Positions 1,461-14,799 of a stretch of 21,022 nt of DNA are shown piece by piece. The notes below the pieces were generated by a model. That model had not been told where the DNA came from. It did not search any database and was given only the letters and a program-made list of their open reading frames with translations. The stretch spans positions 1 to 21,022 of the IMG/VR virus record IMGVR_UViG_3300008470_000158, one strand, 5' to 3'. The stretch's first letter is position 1. Every line of letters begins with the position of its first letter. The position numbers were made by a program, and so were the translations under genes. This stretch comes from a virus.

Positions 1461-1760
1461 ATGACAGCATTAACACAAATAGCATTAGGTCAAATCATAT
1501 TCCTCGCGGCGATATACGCGCTTATCCGATTCGAGCGGATTAGAGGTGACATAGAGCAGATCAATCAGGTCTCAAGATTGTGTTCCGCCAAAAACGAGCG
1601 CATCGCCGGGCTGACGAACGAGCGTGCGTTTTTTAAAGACGGGTATGAACGCGCAATCTACACCGGAACGAAGCTCATGGACGAACTCAAGGCAACACGG
1701 CGGCAACTTGGGGCGGCTAGGGGCCAGATTACCAAGCTGAAAAATGGAACTGTAAAATGA
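1461..1760 (+). CDS. Membrane-anchored coiled-coil protein (99 aa)
   Basis: It starts at ATG 1461 behind AAAGGA. Residues 5-23 form one hydrophobic helix (TQIALGQIIFLAAIYALI), followed by a basic/acidic heptad-like region (about residues 30-95) expected to be a coiled coil. The topology would be one N-terminal membrane segment with a cytoplasmic or periplasmic helical tail. The stop overlaps the start of the next single-span protein (ATGA), so the two are probably co-translated. This pair resembles spanin-like or small phage membrane gene pairs, but there is no lipobox and no lysis context here, so I do not call a function. Confidence 0.65.
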   Translation: MTALTQIALGQIIFLAAIYALIRFERIRGDIEQINQVSRLCSAKNERIAGLTNERAFFKDGYERAIYTGTKLMDELKATRRQLGAARGQITKLKNGTVK

Positions 1761-1927
1761 AAACCATAAAGAAAATCATACAACGATCGATAGAAATAGT
1801 CATGTTGCCAGTGTTCTTTGTCGGGATTTCATTCGCAATAATAGCCATTTTTGTAGCGGATGATACGAAGGGCAGAACGCAAACTGAAGGGTTTCTGCGC
1901 GCCATTGAAAGGTGGTTTTACTCGTGA
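1757..1927 (+). CDS. Small single-span membrane protein (56 aa)
   Basis: It starts at ATG 1757 inside the stop region of the preceding gene (AAATGA), a coupled start. A basic N-terminus (MKTIKKIIQRS) precedes a hydrophobic segment at about residues 13-33 (IVMLPVFFVGISFAIIAIFV). A short polar tail ends in RWFYS. This is a typical positive-inside single-span phage membrane protein. The stop overlaps the GTG start of the RusA-like gene. Function is not recognisable; with the previous gene it may form a membrane complex. Confidence 0.6.
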   Translation: MKTIKKIIQRSIEIVMLPVFFVGISFAIIAIFVADDTKGRTQTEGFLRAIERWFYS

Positions 1928-2274
1928 AAACGATAACCCTGCCACTGCCGGACCGCAGACTTTCGCCTAATGCCAGAATCCATTGGGCAAAAAAGTCGAA
2001 GATTACGAAGGCGCATAGAGCCAGGTCATACATAATAGGGCTATCAACGTTCGGGACTTTGGATACAATGCGCTTCAAATCCTACCGACTGCGTTTCTTT
2101 TGGGAAACCAAGCACAGACACGACGCAGATAATGCGGTTGCATCCTGCAAAAGTTTTTTGGATGGAATATCTGATGCCATAGGTCAGGATGACAGCGAGT
2201 GGGAATTTAACGGCGTTCGTTTCGAGTTGGATCGAGATAATCCAAGGCTTGAAATTGAGTTTGAGGAGGTATGA
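1924..2274 (+). CDS. rusA: RusA-like Holliday junction resolvase
   Basis: The protein (116 aa from GTG 1924) shows the RusA pattern. It has an N-terminal LPLPDRRLSPNARIHW segment, a central strand, then HDADNAVASCKSFLDGISDA and IGQDDSEW, with the conserved acidic residues (the DxDN, LDG and DD positions) that bind metal in RusA dimers. RusA enzymes cut four-way DNA junctions, and in phages they resolve recombination or replication intermediates before packaging. GTG 1924 overlaps the preceding stop (GTGA) and follows AAAGGTGG at a good distance, so it is preferred over GTG 1912. The length matches the roughly 120-aa family norm. Confidence 0.85.
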   Translation: MKTITLPLPDRRLSPNARIHWAKKSKITKAHRARSYIIGLSTFGTLDTMRFKSYRLRFFWETKHRHDADNAVASCKSFLDGISDAIGQDDSEWEFNGVRFELDRDNPRLEIEFEEV

Positions 2275-2299
2275 ACCGAAATATCCTTGACAACCTACC

Positions 2300-2599
2300 A
2301 TGCGAAACGGTAACAAGTATTCCATGCAAGTGACACAGCCCGAAACAGCAGAGCCGCAGAGCATCGGAGACCTAAAATATGCACCAATGGGGCGCATGAC
2401 GCAAATGACTCGGCAGATGTTCTCAATGATCGTTGAAAGGTCGGGGCGCGGGCTGTGGACATGTTACCGTGATTGTATGGATGCTGGGCTTAATTCGCCG
2501 CCGTCAGAGATGAGGCGCATTTTAGAAGCGTGTGAGGGCTTGCAGAACATGAGTATTAAGTTTCGATATGAGGGTCGCAGGGTTTGGTTTTGTGTTTAG
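2300..2599 (+). CDS. Hypothetical phage protein (99 aa)
   Basis: This is an open frame after RusA. The start is uncertain: ATG 2300 gives 99 aa without a clear ribosome site, and ATG 2324 is a shorter alternative. The C-terminal two thirds (about residues 34-99) look like a compact helical fold ending in a beta-strand pair (SIKFRYEGRRVWFCV), consistent with a small winged-helix protein, but this is inference. It lies between the resolvase and the packaging genes. The strong GAGGAGGT at 2263-2270 is too close to ATG 2271 to serve it well. Confidence 0.55.
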   Translation: MRNGNKYSMQVTQPETAEPQSIGDLKYAPMGRMTQMTRQMFSMIVERSGRGLWTCYRDCMDAGLNSPPSEMRRILEACEGLQNMSIKFRYEGRRVWFCV

Positions 2600-2616
2600 A
2601 AAAAAGGGGGATGATT

Positions 2617-2766
2617 ATGAGCAGCTGTTTTCCAGACTGTTTACCGACCGAGGCTGAAGCTGAAGTGATGATCGAGGAGCACAAGAACAAGCCGCTGAAA
2701 ATACTTATTACAGGGAGGAAGAAGATCGTTTTTATGCCTGACGGACATTTTTATGGGGAGGAGTAG
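2617..2766 (+). CDS. Small hypothetical protein (49 aa)
   Basis: It starts at ATG 2617, 6 nt after AAGGGGG; ATG 2611 is too close to that site. The protein begins MSSCFPDCLPTEAEAEVMIE and ends in a strand-rich KILITGRKKIVFMPDGHFYG segment. Two Cys near the N-terminus (C4, C8) could bind metal or form a disulfide, but there is no second pair. The next gene starts two bases after its stop. No family recognised. Confidence 0.55.
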   Translation: MSSCFPDCLPTEAEAEVMIEEHKNKPLKILITGRKKIVFMPDGHFYGEE

Positions 2767-2768
2767 AT

Positions 2769-2975
2769 ATGGCAAAAATTGGAACAGAGTTCACGCTTGA
2801 TACATCGGCGCTTGATTCGCTTGTAAACATCACCTGCAACGCAAAATGCAAGAATAATGGTATTTATCAGGTAACGTCAAACACCGGAGGGAAGAGAGGG
2901 TTTTTCTGTAACCTAAAGCGTTCGCATATCGGCGAGGGCGGTCAGTGCCAAAACTTTAAACCATTTGAGGAGTAA
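2769..2975 (+). CDS. Cysteine-containing small protein (68 aa)
   Basis: It starts at ATG 2769 behind GGGGAGGAG. Cysteines lie at residues 23, 27, 47 and 60 (CNAKC, FFCN, GQCQNF), a spacing that could bind one zinc ion, though no standard zinc-finger pattern is obvious. The protein ends FKPFEE and its stop is 2 nt before the terS ATG, so it is in the packaging operon. Function unknown. Confidence 0.6.
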   Translation: MAKIGTEFTLDTSALDSLVNITCNAKCKNNGIYQVTSNTGGKRGFFCNLKRSHIGEGGQCQNFKPFEE

Positions 2976-2977
2976 TC

Positions 2978-3442
2978 ATGCCGGCAGGACGACCGACTAA
3001 ATATAAAGACGAGTATGCAGAGCAGGCATATAAGCTTTGTTTGCTTGGATTTATTGATTTAGAGCTTGCCAAATTCTTTGAGGTTGACGAGCAGACAATC
3101 AACCGATGGAAGAACGGCCACGAGGAATTTTGTCAGTCCATCAAGAGCGGCAAGCAAATTGCAAACGGAAATGTAGCCGAAAGTCTCTATAAAAGGGCGA
3201 TGGGATATGAGCACGACGAGGAAAAAGTTTTCTGCAATATGGGTGAGATAACGACCCATCAAACCGTTAAACATTACCCGCCAGATACACAGGCCGCCTC
3301 GCTATTCCTCCGCAACCGACAGCCGGACAAGTGGCGTGACAAGCAAGAAATCGATCACCAATCAAGCGACGGCTCCATGTCACCAAAAGCAACCGAAGAC
3401 GATCTAGATGCAAAGCTTAAAGAGTACGGCATTGGGGGTTGA
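2978..3442 (+). CDS. terS: Terminase small subunit
   Basis: The N-terminus MPAGRPTKYKDEYAEQAYKL is the classic opening of a phage TerS family. An HTH follows (about residues 22-45: FIDLELAKFFEVDEQTINRW), and then the conserved YKRAMGYEHDEEKVF and KHYPPDTQAASLFLRNRQPD segments. TerS oligomers recognise the pac or cos DNA and stimulate the TerL ATPase. The length of 154 aa fits the family. The start follows a GAGGAG site. The 3' end overlaps the terL start by 35 nt, if TerL begins at 3408, giving tight coupling of the two packaging subunits. Confidence 0.9.
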   Translation: MPAGRPTKYKDEYAEQAYKLCLLGFIDLELAKFFEVDEQTINRWKNGHEEFCQSIKSGKQIANGNVAESLYKRAMGYEHDEEKVFCNMGEITTHQTVKHYPPDTQAASLFLRNRQPDKWRDKQEIDHQSSDGSMSPKATEDDLDAKLKEYGIGG

Positions 3443-5912
3443 CGAACAGCTTCTCAAGATTCGCGGACTGCCGATAAGCGCAGACGAGCGCATTGCGCTA
3501 ATTGAGCGCGTCAAGGTCAAAGCCGCCCGCGAATCATTCCACGAATTCCGCCGATACATCCACCCTAAAAACGCGGTCGGATGGTTTCAGAAGGATGCGG
3601 CGGAACACCTTCAGCAATTTTATGAAGACCTGAAGGACGGAAAGAGGCCAAAACTTGTCATAGAAGCACCTCCGCAACATGGCAAGAGCATGCTTGTCGT
3701 GGACTTCATCGCGTGGCTATCTGGAAAGCGTCCGGACAATCGCACAATCTACACATCTTTTTCAGAGCGTCTCGGCATACGCGCAAACCTGTCCATGCAA
3801 AGAATGATGGGTGGCAGTCGCTACAAGTCAGTTTTTCCAGATTTCGGCATACCAGAAAAGAACGCCATCACCATATCGGCGCAAAAATTAAGGAACCGTG
3901 AGATAATCGAGTTCCTAGATTCAGACGGTTATTTCCGAAACACGACCGTTCAGGGATCAATCACCGGCGAATCGCTGGACTGCGTAGACGGTGAAACATT
4001 AATCCATACAATAAACGGCGTTTTTCCAATTAAAACATTGAAAGCTAAAGACTCTCCGGTTAAAGTATTGTCATTAGATACAACAAACGGAGAATTAAGC
4101 TATGAGGAAATATCGCATTTCAAACGTATTAAAAAGCGCGGGGTTTACAGGATCACCGATAACGATGGAAGAGTTCTTGAATGCACAGGGGATCATAGAA
4201 TCTTTACGGCAAACAGAGGATATATCGAAGCGTGTAATGTATCCGCCGGTGATTCTCTGCTGTGTGCGTTGCGGGAAGACGTACATCAAACCGGCTTGCG
4301 ACGTGGTGAAATGGCAGAGGTCGAACTGCCGAATGACGTACTGCTCGAAAGAATGCCGAAACAAAAACGCCCCCATAGCGAAGGCAGTAAAAAAGTTTTG
4401 CAGGGATTGCGGAAAAGGAATACCGAGGCAGTGGGGTGTGTTGTGCGAGGATTGTTTGACGGCAACAAGGGCAGAGAAGACGGGGGAGTTCCAGCCGATA
4501 GAGATGCCGTGCCAACAATGCGGGAAGACATTTCAGTCAGAGCATCGAGGGCGTGGAAAATACGCCTCGTTTTGTTCGATGGATTGCAAAAATTCCAATC
4601 ACTCTTCTTCAATGATGAGAGAAAGAAACCCCTCATGGCTCGGCGGGATAACGGAGGTGAGGGAGAGCAACGAAGTGAAGGCGAAGTTCAAAGCCGCGAA
4701 GAGGCAATACACGGAGAAGTTCGGGGCAGGATGCGCAGACCGGTGCCAGATGTGCGGCTCGGAAACGCGCATTCAGTTCCACCACAAGGATTTCGACCCC
4801 ACATCAAACACGGCGGTGAATTTAGCGGTTCTGTGCGAGCCGTGCCATGTTGCAACACACAACAAACGCAAGTCGCTAAAATAGAACTGATTGATGAGGA
4901 GCGCGTTTTTTACGACATAACCGTCAACAAAAACCACAACTTTTTTGCCAACGGTATACTTGTTCACAACTGCGGGGTGATCGACGATCCAATCCGTGGC
5001 CGTAAGGATGCGAACAGCACGACCGTGCGCAACGGGTGCTGGGATTGGTTCACGGATGATTTCTTCACGCGGTTCAGCGAGGATGCGGGGTTGCTGTGCA
5101 TCCTGACTCGGTGGCACATAGACGACCCGATAGGCCGACTCATAGCCTCTGACCCGTCCGTCAAGGTGCTAAAGTATAAAGCCACTGCCGAGGAAGACGA
5201 GCCGCACAGAAAGAAGGGAGAGGCTTTATTTCCCGAACTGAAATCGCTTGAATTTCTACTTGAACGAAAACACATGATGCCGGACGTGAATTGGTCTGCA
5301 CTATTCCAACAGATGCCGTACGCGCAAGGCGGCGAGATAATCAAAGGCGCGATGTTTGGGCGCTATAAGAAGTTGCCAGAACTGCTATATCGCGGAATCA
5401 TGTCAGACACGGCGCTGAAAAAGAAGCAGGCAAATGACTATCAGGTCGCGACGTGTGGCGGGCTTGGCAAGGATGACGGCAAGGTTTATATCATAGACGT
5501 GTTCCGCGAAAAGTTTGAGGCGTATGAGCTTGAAAAACGCTTCCCAGATTTCTGGGCAAAGCATAAGACACGCGACACGGGCGTATTGAGATATTTCGGC
5601 GTTGAGGATAAGGCGAGCGGCACAGAGTTGATCCAGCGCATGAAGAATACGATTGTGCCAGCGATACCCGTCAAAGCCATACCTAGAAGCATCGACAAAT
5701 ACACGCGACTGCAAGACGTGCTTGGGTTCATCGAAAGCGGTCACGTCATGCTTCCAGAAAACGCGCCATGGGTTTCTGACTTCATTGCAGAATGTGAATC
5801 GTTTACGGCTGACGACGCACACGACCACGACGACCAAGTTGATACACTGATCGACCTGATCGACGAGATGCTAGGCGGTGCGAGTGGTGGGTCTAGTCTG
5901 CTGATTTATTAG
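3408..5912 (+). CDS. terL: Terminase large subunit precursor, interrupted by an intein
   Basis: The 834-aa precursor would splice to a 504-aa TerL. The N-extein (residues 1-191) carries Walker A (APPQHGKS, residues 87-94). The C-extein begins CGVIDDP, the Walker B strand. The nuclease domain follows, with acidic motifs near SDTA, GVEDKASG and HDDQVDTLID. TerL drives ATP-dependent packaging at the portal and cuts the concatemer. The intein (residues 192-521) sits directly in front of Walker B, so unspliced protein should be inactive. The start is ATG 3408, overlapping terS; TTG 3432 is an alternative with a better-spaced AAAGAG. The gene converges with the leftward module, overlapping by 4 nt at its end. 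TerL and intein calls are both strong. Confidence 0.93.
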   Translation: MQSLKSTALGVDEQLLKIRGLPISADERIALIERVKVKAARESFHEFRRYIHPKNAVGWFQKDAAEHLQQFYEDLKDGKRPKLVIEAPPQHGKSMLVVDFIAWLSGKRPDNRTIYTSFSERLGIRANLSMQRMMGGSRYKSVFPDFGIPEKNAITISAQKLRNREIIEFLDSDGYFRNTTVQGSITGESLDCVDGETLIHTINGVFPIKTLKAKDSPVKVLSLDTTNGELSYEEISHFKRIKKRGVYRITDNDGRVLECTGDHRIFTANRGYIEACNVSAGDSLLCALREDVHQTGLRRGEMAEVELPNDVLLERMPKQKRPHSEGSKKVLQGLRKRNTEAVGCVVRGLFDGNKGREDGGVPADRDAVPTMREDISVRASRAWKIRLVLFDGLQKFQSLFFNDERKKPLMARRDNGGEGEQRSEGEVQSREEAIHGEVRGRMRRPVPDVRLGNAHSVPPQGFRPHIKHGGEFSGSVRAVPCCNTQQTQVAKIELIDEERVFYDITVNKNHNFFANGILVHNCGVIDDPIRGRKDANSTTVRNGCWDWFTDDFFTRFSEDAGLLCILTRWHIDDPIGRLIASDPSVKVLKYKATAEEDEPHRKKGEALFPELKSLEFLLERKHMMPDVNWSALFQQMPYAQGGEIIKGAMFGRYKKLPELLYRGIMSDTALKKKQANDYQVATCGGLGKDDGKVYIIDVFREKFEAYELEKRFPDFWAKHKTRDTGVLRYFGVEDKASGTELIQRMKNTIVPAIPVKAIPRSIDKYTRLQDVLGFIESGHVMLPENAPWVSDFIAECESFTADDAHDHDDQVDTLIDLIDEMLGGASGGSSLLIY
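4038..4066 (+). promoter_or_regulatory. Candidate promoter inside the TerL intein
   Basis: TTGAAA (4038-4043) is separated by 17 nt from TAAAGT (4061-4066). This would start RNA near 4073, just upstream of the GGAG at 4089-4092 that precedes ATG 4102 of the nested HNH gene. The -10 match is only 4 of 6 and the region is AT-rich coding DNA, so chance is possible. Confidence 0.3.
4102..4884 (+). CDS. HNH homing endonuclease with zinc fingers, nested in the +1 frame of the intein
   Basis: This frame, +1 to TerL/intein, encodes up to 260 aa. Cys pairs form three CxxC-type knuckles (C54/C57 with C81/C85; C100/C103 with C115/C118; C137/C140 with C158/C162). The linker RNPSWLGGIT (175-184) is typical of phage HNH enzymes. 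The HNH core has C215xxC218, H227-H228, N240, C245xxC248 and H253. Such enzymes nick or cut an empty target allele and drive homing of their element. ATG 4102 has GGAG 9 nt upstream; ATG 4237 is an alternative that starts right after intein block B. The stop (TAG 4882-4884) falls exactly where the intein C-terminal splicing domain resumes. The domain call is strong and expression is inferred. It would be a free-standing protein unless a frameshift links it to the intein. Confidence 0.85.
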   Translation: MRKYRISNVLKSAGFTGSPITMEEFLNAQGIIESLRQTEDISKRVMYPPVILCCVRCGKTYIKPACDVVKWQRSNCRMTYCSKECRNKNAPIAKAVKKFCRDCGKGIPRQWGVLCEDCLTATRAEKTGEFQPIEMPCQQCGKTFQSEHRGRGKYASFCSMDCKNSNHSSSMMRERNPSWLGGITEVRESNEVKAKFKAAKRQYTEKFGAGCADRCQMCGSETRIQFHHKDFDPTSNTAVNLAVLCEPCHVATHNKRKSLK

Positions 5913-13030: not shown

Positions 13031-13036
13031 AAACCA

Positions 13037-13066
13037 ACCATAAACCGAAAACACACCGAATGGCAA
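13037..13066 (-). promoter_or_regulatory. Weak candidate promoter for the alpha-CTD-like gene
   Basis: On the minus strand TTGCCA (13066-13061), an 18-nt spacer and TATGGT (13042-13037) end 6 nt before ATG 13030. This would make a leaderless mRNA, agreeing with the absence of a clear ribosome site. The match is partial and overlaps the MuF start. Confidence 0.25.
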
Positions 13067-14799
13067 CTGAAAAACAGCGCGGAGACAAGCTAAAGAAAGA
13101 TATTGCCGCTGGTGAGAAATCATTGGGCGGCATTCTTTCTAGGCGCAAACGTGCCGTGACAGGAGCCGTCGCACAGTTCGCCGGGACAAAGGGTTTCTCC
13201 ACATCTGCAACCGTCCGCAATGGCCTATATTCTGAGCTTGCCAAGGAATATCAGACGCTCAATACAGACATCAACAAATGGACGGTTGACAGCGTAGACG
13301 ACACGGCAAAGCAATGGTGGGGATATGCCAAGGATGATCTTCCAGCGGGTAAGGTTGCGACATTCGGTGCATTCTCTGAAAAGCACGTACAAGATATAAT
13401 CGGCAGAATCAATCCCGCATCCATCGGCGAACAGGTTGCCGTAAACGCACAGATCGGCGGGATGCTTCAGAATGACATCCGCGTTTTAAGATCAGCAGTC
13501 AGCACAACCATTGCAGAGGGCGCGGTTGAGGGACTCACGAACAAACAGCTTGCAGACCGCATGAAGTCGAAGGTAATCGATGCGGCGGGATCATTTAAAT
13601 TTATCGATGCGGCAGGACGGCGACAGTCGGCAGACAACTATTTTGGGATGCTCAACCGGACGCTACACGCAACGGCTGCGCGGGATAGCTACATTGCAAC
13701 GGCGACGGATGCCGGATTTGACTTGTATCAAATCGAGGGCGGCGTTACGGGATCGAGCGCGGACAACCCGAGCGACCCTTGCGATCAATGGGCAGGGCGT
13801 ATCATATCGATGACGGGGCAGACTAAGGGTTATCCGACGTATCAGGATGCTATCTCGGCAGGCGTATTTCATCCTCAATGTTGCGTATCTGAAACAGAGG
13901 TTATATGCCCAGACCTTCAGGCGGCATCACGCTTTAAATACTCAGGCCAAATGGTCAAGATTAAATATGCCAGTGGTAATACGCTTTCCGTTACCCCAAA
14001 TCACATGCTTCTCACCGATCAAGGATTCGCCCCCGCCTGCTCGCTCGCAAAGGGCGACAACGTATTGCGCCGCATTGAAGGAAATGGGCTTGGCGGCGGT
14101 AGTCCAGATGTAGAGCGGGAGCCATCCACAATCAAGGACGTATTTATGGCGGTCTGGAAGTGTGGCGGCGTGCTTGCCACTAAGATGCCAGTGTCCGCCG
14201 AAGATTTCCACGGCGATGGAGAATTTGGGAATGGCGATGTCGATGTTGTATTTGCCGACCGCCTTCTGTTGGATGATACTACCGGAAACCCTATCACCAA
14301 GCCACTCGGCAAGCATGGTTTCGCTTTTGCTGACATTGTGAAGTTTCCCTTCGTTGGCGATAGCTCGCTTGCAAAGGTGCTCCTCTGTCTGGCGGGAGCC
14401 ACGAACCGCATCGTGAGCGGCCTTGGTGTGCGCCATTCGCCAGTCTGCGCCCCTGAGCTTCTGGGTAAGGACGAGCTGATCGGTTTTGCTCCTGATGTTT
14501 ACACCTGCGGAAACAAGGGCGTCTCTGACTCTGTCCTGATTGACATGCAGAATTTTGCTGATTTTCCAGTATCCGAGTCCGCTATCATAGAGAGAGACTA
14601 CGTTGTCGGTGTCGATATGTTTAGGTTTAGCGGGCATGTTTATGATCTCCAGTGTTTAAGTACACTGTATTACGCCAACGGATACGTGTCAAGCAACTGC
14701 GTCCATTTCATTCGCGCAATCATGCCGTCAGAAATTAAAGCGGCGAAGGTTGAACAGAAGGCCGAGAAGAAAGAGGCGAAGGAGTTGCCAGATGGCTGA
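13060..14799 (+). CDS. MuF-like minor head protein precursor, interrupted by an intein
   Basis: The 579-aa precursor splices to 306 aa. The N-extein (1-273) is helical with the MuF/SPP1 gp7-like segments (GLTNKQLADRMKSKVIDAAG, LNRTLHATAARDSYIATATD, PSDPCDQWAGRI) and ends HPQ. Splicing restores HPQ-CVHF, the HPxCxH motif that closes this family. MuF proteins are minor head components that link the portal region with DNA entry. The C-extein has a charged helix (KAAKVEQKAEKKEAKEL). The start at ATG 13060 has no good ribosome site, and no ATG lies upstream in frame. The stop overlaps the next gene. Confidence 0.85.
   Translation: MATEKQRGDKLKKDIAAGEKSLGGILSRRKRAVTGAVAQFAGTKGFSTSATVRNGLYSELAKEYQTLNTDINKWTVDSVDDTAKQWWGYAKDDLPAGKVATFGAFSEKHVQDIIGRINPASIGEQVAVNAQIGGMLQNDIRVLRSAVSTTIAEGAVEGLTNKQLADRMKSKVIDAAGSFKFIDAAGRRQSADNYFGMLNRTLHATAARDSYIATATDAGFDLYQIEGGVTGSSADNPSDPCDQWAGRIISMTGQTKGYPTYQDAISAGVFHPQCCVSETEVICPDLQAASRFKYSGQMVKIKYASGNTLSVTPNHMLLTDQGFAPACSLAKGDNVLRRIEGNGLGGGSPDVEREPSTIKDVFMAVWKCGGVLATKMPVSAEDFHGDGEFGNGDVDVVFADRLLLDDTTGNPITKPLGKHGFAFADIVKFPFVGDSSLAKVLLCLAGATNRIVSGLGVRHSPVCAPELLGKDELIGFAPDVYTCGNKGVSDSVLIDMQNFADFPVSESAIIERDYVVGVDMFRFSGHVYDLQCLSTLYYANGYVSSNCVHFIRAIMPSEIKAAKVEQKAEKKEAKELPDG
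13942..14637 (-). CDS. Vsr-like (EDxHD-type) homing endonuclease encoded antisense to the MuF intein
   Basis: The 231-aa protein is read leftward from ATG 14637, with GGAG 9 nt upstream (14650-14647). Residues 12-50 form an HTH-like DNA-binding domain (VVSLYDSGLGYWKISKILHV), similar to those at the ends of phage homing enzymes. The catalytic region SKSETMLAEWL (E106), KYNIDIAIP (D133), VEIFGGHWH (E144, H149, H151), then PDRHKYVL and CGWLPLYIW has the order and hydrophobic pattern of Vsr-fold nucleases, including the EDxHD family (I-Bth0305I type). Such enzymes are known from environmental split-intein loci. Codons align exactly with sense codons, so the intein avoids TTA, CTA and TCA from 13945 to 14637. 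The next sense TCA supplies the antisense TGA. Domain call good; activity and expression inferred. Confidence 0.8.
   Translation of the reverse strand: MPAKPKHIDTDNVVSLYDSGLGYWKISKILHVNQDRVRDALVSAGVNIRSKTDQLVLTQKLRGADWRMAHTKAAHDAVRGSRQTEEHLCKRAIANEGKLHNVSKSETMLAEWLGDRVSGSIIQQKAVGKYNIDIAIPKFSIAVEIFGGHWHLSGKHAATLPDRHKYVLDCGWLPLYIWTTAAKPISFNAAQYVVALCERAGGGESLIGEKHVIWGNGKRITTGIFNLDHLA
14664..14692 (-). promoter_or_regulatory. Candidate antisense promoter inside the MuF intein
   Basis: On the minus strand TTGACA (14692-14687, perfect -35) lies 17 nt from TACAGT (14669-14664). This predicts a start near 14657, then GGAG and the ATG at 14637. The first 12 bases, TTGACACGTATC, match copy 1 of the shared motif at 7406 in 11 of 12. 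The -35 ends five bases inside the intein C-terminal boundary. Chance cannot be excluded. Confidence 0.45.

Follow-up and report, generated by a model that had tools for sequence, protein, structure and literature searches.

Inteins are usually described as a splicing domain whose chain may or may not also include an endonuclease domain. The large terminase gene (terL) of the viral DNA analyzed here raises the question of whether these two activities can be laid out as two separate proteins over the same bases, one read in the terL frame and the other in the +1 frame of the same strand. The window studied, 21,022 bp long, is an entire viral contig from IMG/VR, with a gene order of small terminase, large terminase, portal, scaffold, minor head and tape-measure. 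The reading we prefer, at a probability of roughly 0.8, is that terL harbors a class 1 intein with present or recent mobility, and that the homing HNH endonuclease of this element would be a separate, overlapping gene.

The terL gene and its intein

The terminase small subunit gene (2978..3442, +; phrog_309, E = 1.4e-54) is followed by terL (3408..5912, +), a single ORF that runs without interruption from end to end and encodes a precursor of 834 aa (phrog_38 TerL, E = 5e-82; TIGR01630, E = 2.5e-31). An intein of 330 aa (3981..4970, +), recognized by PF14890, TIGR01443 and TIGR01445 and by the Pfam Intein_splicing profile (E = 5.6e-20), splits the Walker B motif of TerL, with junctions that read TGESLD/C...HN/CGVIDDP. 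An intein-less relative that is 86% identical (L002) reads TGESLDLGVIDDP at the insertion point, and its empty site TGESLD-LGVIDDP can be set against TGESLD-[C...HN]-CGVIDDP in the window. The intein frame (3981-4973) contains C1, block B (TGDH), block F and the terminal HN followed by C+1. The C1 nucleophile, TxxH motif, block F, terminal Asn and C+1 are those of a class 1 intein, and in an alignment of the relatives these residues are invariant or nearly so.

The N-terminal splicing domain with blocks A and B (C1 and TGDH; 3981..4274, +) has invariant C1, T69 and H72, and the C-terminal splicing domain with block F and HN (4851..4970, +) is matched by TIGR01443 (E = 1.9e-9). The structural model adopts the horseshoe-shaped Hint fold, with pLDDT values mostly of 94-98 in the splicing domain, including its N-terminal part, and of 87-98 in the C-terminal part. 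It resembles the NrdJ-1, gp41-1 and RecA inteins at a target-normalized TM of about 0.8, NrdJ-1 being the nearest solved intein. Given that the residues needed for splicing are all preserved without variation and that the modeled Hint domain is similar to inteins of known structure, splicing is expected to restore TerL, with a length of 504 aa when the exteins are joined computationally. One relative (L017, TerL ORF 1788-4691) has a second short intein-like insert at Walker A (PPRTGK/QLADS...PTHN/SELV).

Between the two splicing domains lies a linker in the intein frame (4275..4850, +) that is stop-free and without a recognizable fold. Its pLDDT is about 35-66, mostly below 55 with short stretches in the 60s, and it is predicted to be disordered. 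A preliminary description of this DNA had proposed an open intein frame with a featureless linker between the splicing blocks, and both points are sustained, the frame being free of stops throughout its overlap with the HNH gene.

The HNH gene in the +1 frame

The HNH endonuclease gene (4102..4884, +) is read at +1 relative to terL and specifies a protein of 260 aa. The nearest annotated family of its product is PHROG 1271, "HNH endonuclease" (E = 1.1e-12), a library entry that mentions neither inteins nor overlapping coding. A family profile matches the product at E = 7e-56, the window sequence itself being among the members of that profile, and Pfam HNH (PF01844) matches residues 215-255 at E = 0.0012, narrowly short of the curated cut-off. 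A Foldseek fold search with the whole-chain model gave no significant match; the assignment rests on profiles rather than on the fold search because the zinc modules are flexible.

Cysteine pairs are found at residues 54/57 and 81/85, 100/103 and 115/118, 137/140 and 158/162, and 215/218 and 245/248. The first three sets form four-Cys zinc modules. In the family alignment all four cysteines are invariant in the first (C54, C57, C81, C85; 4261..4356, +) and the third (C137, C140, C158, C162; 4510..4587, +), as are C115 and C118 of the second (C100, C103, C115, C118; 4399..4455, +). The last set belongs to the HNH catalytic core (C215/C218, HH227-228, N240, C245/C248, H249, H253; 4744..4860, +), which consists of invariant or near-invariant columns within PF01844 and is modeled with pLDDT values mostly of 82-93. 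This is an HNH core with both metal and zinc ligands, as a homing endonuclease would have. The zinc knuckles and HNH core first read in the +1 frame are thus borne out by the 260-aa ORF, its three four-Cys modules and the match to PHROG 1271.

Two other early statements hold in part. The HNH stop was said to coincide with the resumption of block F, which is so in the window and is not a general rule, as the HNH frame of the Gordonia phage Clown remains open beyond the end of the intein. The HNH gene was also placed over the linker only; it does cover the whole linker, but its start overlaps the N-terminal splicing domain as well, ATG 4102 falling within the coding sequence of that domain.

Recurrence of the layout and selection on two frames

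IMG/VR was scanned with HNH, TerL plus intein, and intein profiles, and GenBank phages were searched as well; HMMs constructed for this analysis served to classify the relatives, which were then clustered at 90% identity of the intein. This yielded 55 distinct contiguous inteins from IMG/VR and GenBank phages. The family HNH is present in 50 of the 55 clusters, and it stands at +1 in 50/50, in frame in none and at +2 in none; an open host frame was not a condition of selection in the HNH-based IMG/VR scans. The insertion site of these 50 clusters is TerL Walker B wherever the flanks were read. The five clusters that lack the family HNH are the FoX3 helicase intein and four short inteins. A tblastn search of GenBank phages with the HNH protein found its best matches within the annotated TerL of two isolates, Gordonia phage Clown and Synechococcus phage S-EIV1, where the HNH likewise lies at +1 of an open TerL-intein frame and where the records annotate only TerL across the HNH gene. 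GTDB genome contigs searched with a three-sequence HNH profile gave no relatives, and a search of IMG/VR with a single HNH sequence gave no match because the HNH family is very divergent.

The mean pairwise identity among relatives is 34% for the HNH protein and 27% for TerL, and the layout is therefore long-lived across a large divergence. The 50 clusters are not 50 independent inventions, since some are kin and the family may share one origin; the HNH tree is weakly supported and compatible with a single origin or several.

This recurrence bears on the suspicion that two compensating indels, through error or decay, mask what is in fact a standard intein carrying its HNH domain in frame. Such inteins do occur, as in the dCTP deaminase intein of Aphanizomenon phage CL131 (L009), and relatives of the window with an in-frame HNH, which would have undone the overlapping reading, were looked for. 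None was found, all 50 clusters with a detectable family HNH having it at +1. An indel artefact would have to give the identical phase in 50 distinct assemblies, two isolate genomes being among the relatives, and it is contradicted by the pattern of stop avoidance described below and by the ORFs of the HNH frame, whose starts and stops do not depend on the intein. There is next to no chance that it explains the locus, and frameshift or sequencing error was rejected as a candidate on the 50 recurrences in one phase. The overlapping layout is, judged from these comparisons, a stable stacking of two proteins in one stretch of DNA. Separately, in one relative (L204) a frame break near 2520-2540 shifts the HNH and intein frames jointly, each being broken once, which reflects either error or decay.

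In the +1 phase, each intein codon takes its first base from the last position of an HNH codon and its other two bases from the start of the following HNH codon, and a stop in the intein frame requires an HNH codon that ends in T followed by a codon beginning with AA, AG or GA. As T-ending codons all have C-ending synonyms, the HNH protein is almost free to evolve while the host frame is held open. In the window, T is found at 0 of 47 such risk sites and ends 23% of comparable codons elsewhere. Given the HNH codons and the local third-position use of T, the chance of a stop-free intein frame is about 4e-6; the early claim that such a frame is improbable is thus confirmed, the event being rarer than the 1e-4 to 1e-5 then proposed. 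When 50 members are pooled, T occupies 0 of 2407 risk sites versus 31% of 7041 other sites, and it occupies 117 of 302 equivalent sites in freestanding and split HNH relatives. In GC-rich members (L025 and L159, for example), an open frame is by itself unsurprising. Chance opening of the intein frame was considered and is ruled out by this T-avoidance test.

Substitutions were counted by terL codon position in eight pairs of relatives. Positions 1/2/3 changed 1193/950/2022 times in the exteins and 834/545/464 times in the overlap (p = 4e-65 versus the exteins), so that most changes in the overlap fall at the first position of terL, which is the third position of the HNH codon. The pair L142/L153 gives 4/1/20 in the extein and 68/20/16 in the overlap. 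Across the eight pairs, amino acid change amounts to 38% when the HNH frame is translated, versus 60% for the intein frame. Similarity in the HNH frame might only reflect conservation of the intein; this possibility is ruled out in the linker, where substitutions track HNH codons. The mean identity among relatives of the intein-frame linker is 19% versus 34% for the HNH protein. Together with its predicted disorder, the absence of T from all 2407 risk sites and the concentration of changes at HNH third positions, this indicates that the linker is kept stop-free and little else, as the preliminary description had suspected. Its further view, that selection maintains both frames rather than that two frameshift errors arose, agrees with the +1 recurrence, the avoidance of T and the pattern of substitution.

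The same data speak to the idea that an endonuclease once in frame or freestanding is now decaying, and that the HNH frame is what remains of it, still open by chance. Degenerate members are known (L117, L190 and L173), but purifying selection acts on the HNH frame in the eight pairs, and the Cys, His and Asn residues are invariant across about 30% identity, making decay extremely improbable as a general account.

Proposed translation and mobility, and known systems

In the proposed mechanism, the HNH gene would occupy the same strand in the +1 frame, covering the entire linker and some of the N-terminal splicing domain. Reading in the terL frame would yield an intact Hint domain joined via a disordered linker, and self-excision of the intein would restore TerL. 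From an internal start on the same mRNA, most likely ATG 4102 behind GGAG, the zinc-module HNH protein would be made; where terL has no intein, this protein would cleave the codons of Walker B, and repair would copy in the whole element. We infer each of these steps (splicing, internal initiation, site-specific cleavage and homing of the element) from sequence and its comparison.

Translation of the HNH gene is probably by internal initiation at ATG 4102, which is preceded at 9 nt by the Shine-Dalgarno-like GGAG (4089..4092, +; duplex energy -6.6 kcal/mol). Among the members, Shine-Dalgarno pairing is stronger at in-frame ATGs than at out-of-frame ATGs of the extein (P = 0.009, matched resampling), and pairing at -6 or better is found in 15/39 (P = 0.001). 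Internal initiation is nevertheless put forward as an inferred step, because an in-frame ATG ahead of the first zinc module is missing from 9 of 48 members; several show only weak pairing. In some members no internal ATG is well supported by Shine-Dalgarno pairing, which is consistent with a different route, in which programmed +1 ribosomal frameshifting would make the HNH as a fusion to the N-terminal part of the intein, and the start of HNH homology near the end of block B is likewise compatible with it. However, a well-spaced Shine-Dalgarno sequence and ATG are present in many members (the window, L014, L017, L021 and L022), and in L022 the HNH frame opens just 3 nt ahead of its Shine-Dalgarno-preceded ATG. 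Furthermore, terL third positions change at 0.29 per codon in the block-B overlap versus 0.55 in the non-overlapping intein, as expected if this segment encodes both proteins. HNH coding thus starts already there, suggesting that translation of the HNH begins upstream of any shift in the linker. Frameshifting is on these grounds unlikely, and internal initiation is the preferred route.

The element has a disjunct distribution, as seen from the intein-free close relative L002 and from a comparison of distances, in which intein distances correlate with those of the HNH (rho 0.43) and TerL distances hardly do (rho 0.07). In L173, which is near-identical at the DNA level to L141, 510 nt of the HNH core are deleted in frame with the intein intact, leaving a mini-intein. 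Homing of the element would follow from the empty sites, the co-variation of intein and HNH (but not of TerL and HNH) and the loss of the HNH in L173. In two further relatives (L117, 781-1422; L190, 2001-2570), the HNH genes are internally shortened and both frames are still open.

In HK97-type phages, a packaging HNH protein is encoded by a separate gene beside the terminase and is required with it. The HNH protein of the window might similarly be a packaging co-factor of TerL, the intein being merely its vehicle, and both its location inside terL and a weak match of the family profile to the phage HNH structure 5h0m could be taken in this sense. The gene lies inside the intein, though, and does not occur in relatives whose terL is free of the intein (L002 among many); it is deleted in L173 and L117 with TerL retained, and its distances do not track those of TerL. 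Its multiple zinc modules, and its relatives among out-of-frame insertions in methylases, also point elsewhere. A packaging role is thus very unlikely, and a homing endonuclease that travels with the intein is the reading retained here.

Naturally split inteins, the two halves of which flank an endonuclease ORF in "fractured genes", were reportedly described by Dassa et al. in 2009. The locus resembles these in having a separate endonuclease ORF associated with an intein, but host and intein form one unbroken ORF that the HNH ORF fully overlaps, and the host gene is not divided into two ORFs in the window. It is so divided in two relatives (L015, 1020-3638; L024, 3-2286), which have split terminase inteins with a related HNH ORF between the halves, suggesting that the contiguous overlapping and the split layouts may interconvert.

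Canonical bifunctional inteins contain an in-frame endonuclease domain, as in mycobacteriophage TerL inteins (PMC5050341). The Hint domain, the insertion in the TerL ATPase domain and the logic of homing are shared with these; the endonuclease of the window, unlike theirs, lies outside the intein polypeptide, at +1 here and in all 50 clusters. The mycobacteriophage TerL1-e inteins, which are likewise in Walker B, are of class 3 (PMC5050341) and were absent from the HNH search results.

A "hidden HNH" has been published for phage DNA methylases as the ShiLan domain (Arsenault, Gosselin and Gogarten 2025, PMC11855218). As in the window, a zinc-motif HNH gene lies out of frame in an open host gene and is disjunctly distributed, and the HNH of Clown is 35% identical to that of ShiLan over 126 aa (E = 6e-5). 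The ShiLan insertion has no splicing domain; in the view of the authors who described it, splicing is improbable (PMC11855218), and the domain would remain part of the methylase. The window differs in that the HNH is at +1 rather than at +2 of the host frame, a complete intein stands in the host frame, and the host gene is the essential terL. In the openly accessible literature, no out-of-frame or antisense endonuclease was found published for an intein; apart from the study of ShiLan (PMC11855218), the searches led only to a note on a genome (PMC12613952).

Overlapping endonucleases in other phage inteins

The minor head protein gene of the window (13033-14799) is also interrupted by an intein, the second in this contig (13882-14697, +). 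Opposite this intein is an antisense ORF (14637-13942, -) that is nuclease-like and resembles a homing endonuclease of the PD-(D/E)XK/Vsr type, with weak matches to the REase family MTES_1575 (E = 0.0018) and to a homing-endonuclease PHROG (E = 3e-4). Its homologues are found in 114 GenBank phage records, including Jerseyvirus, Kagunavirus and Gordonia phages, and in 41 of 41 IMG/VR loci examined it lies in register opposite a long open head-protein frame. Substitutions at sense positions 1/2/3 are 723/334/537 in the antisense overlap versus 949/876/1244 in the exteins (p = 8e-22); this codon-position test favors the antisense protein, whose codons the substitutions track.

In Xanthomonas phage FoX3 (L007), a LAGLIDADG_2 endonuclease (1988-2785; PF03161, E = 1e-21) lies at +2 of a helicase intein whose own frame is open, inside the helicase CDS (1599-3965); one record labels this helicase gene "head morphogenesis". 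Salmonella phage S16 (L010) and Klebsiella phage KP13-7 (L008) have fractured genes with split inteins, in which the endonuclease ORF lies between the intein halves in another frame and slightly overlaps at least one half.

It is quite likely that phage inteins commonly encode the homing endonuclease as a separate overlapping gene, in several families and phases: HNH at +1 in terL, PD-(D/E)XK/Vsr-like antisense to head-morphogenesis genes, and LAGLIDADG at +2 in the FoX3 helicase. This arrangement would be a possible source of split inteins or a related stage, and separately coded overlapping endonucleases may be a general habit of phage inteins. Splicing and endonuclease would then be two proteins from the same bases, neither bound by the folding constraints of the other, and the overlapping layout would offer a route to split inteins. 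It also provides unusually clean overlapping genes in which selection on two frames can be measured, and, since two of the phages are in culture, splicing, translation and homing can be tested directly. Annotation misses the endonuclease, as it does in Clown and S-EIV1; if the reading is true, some of the "featureless linkers" of database inteins would be active mobile elements.
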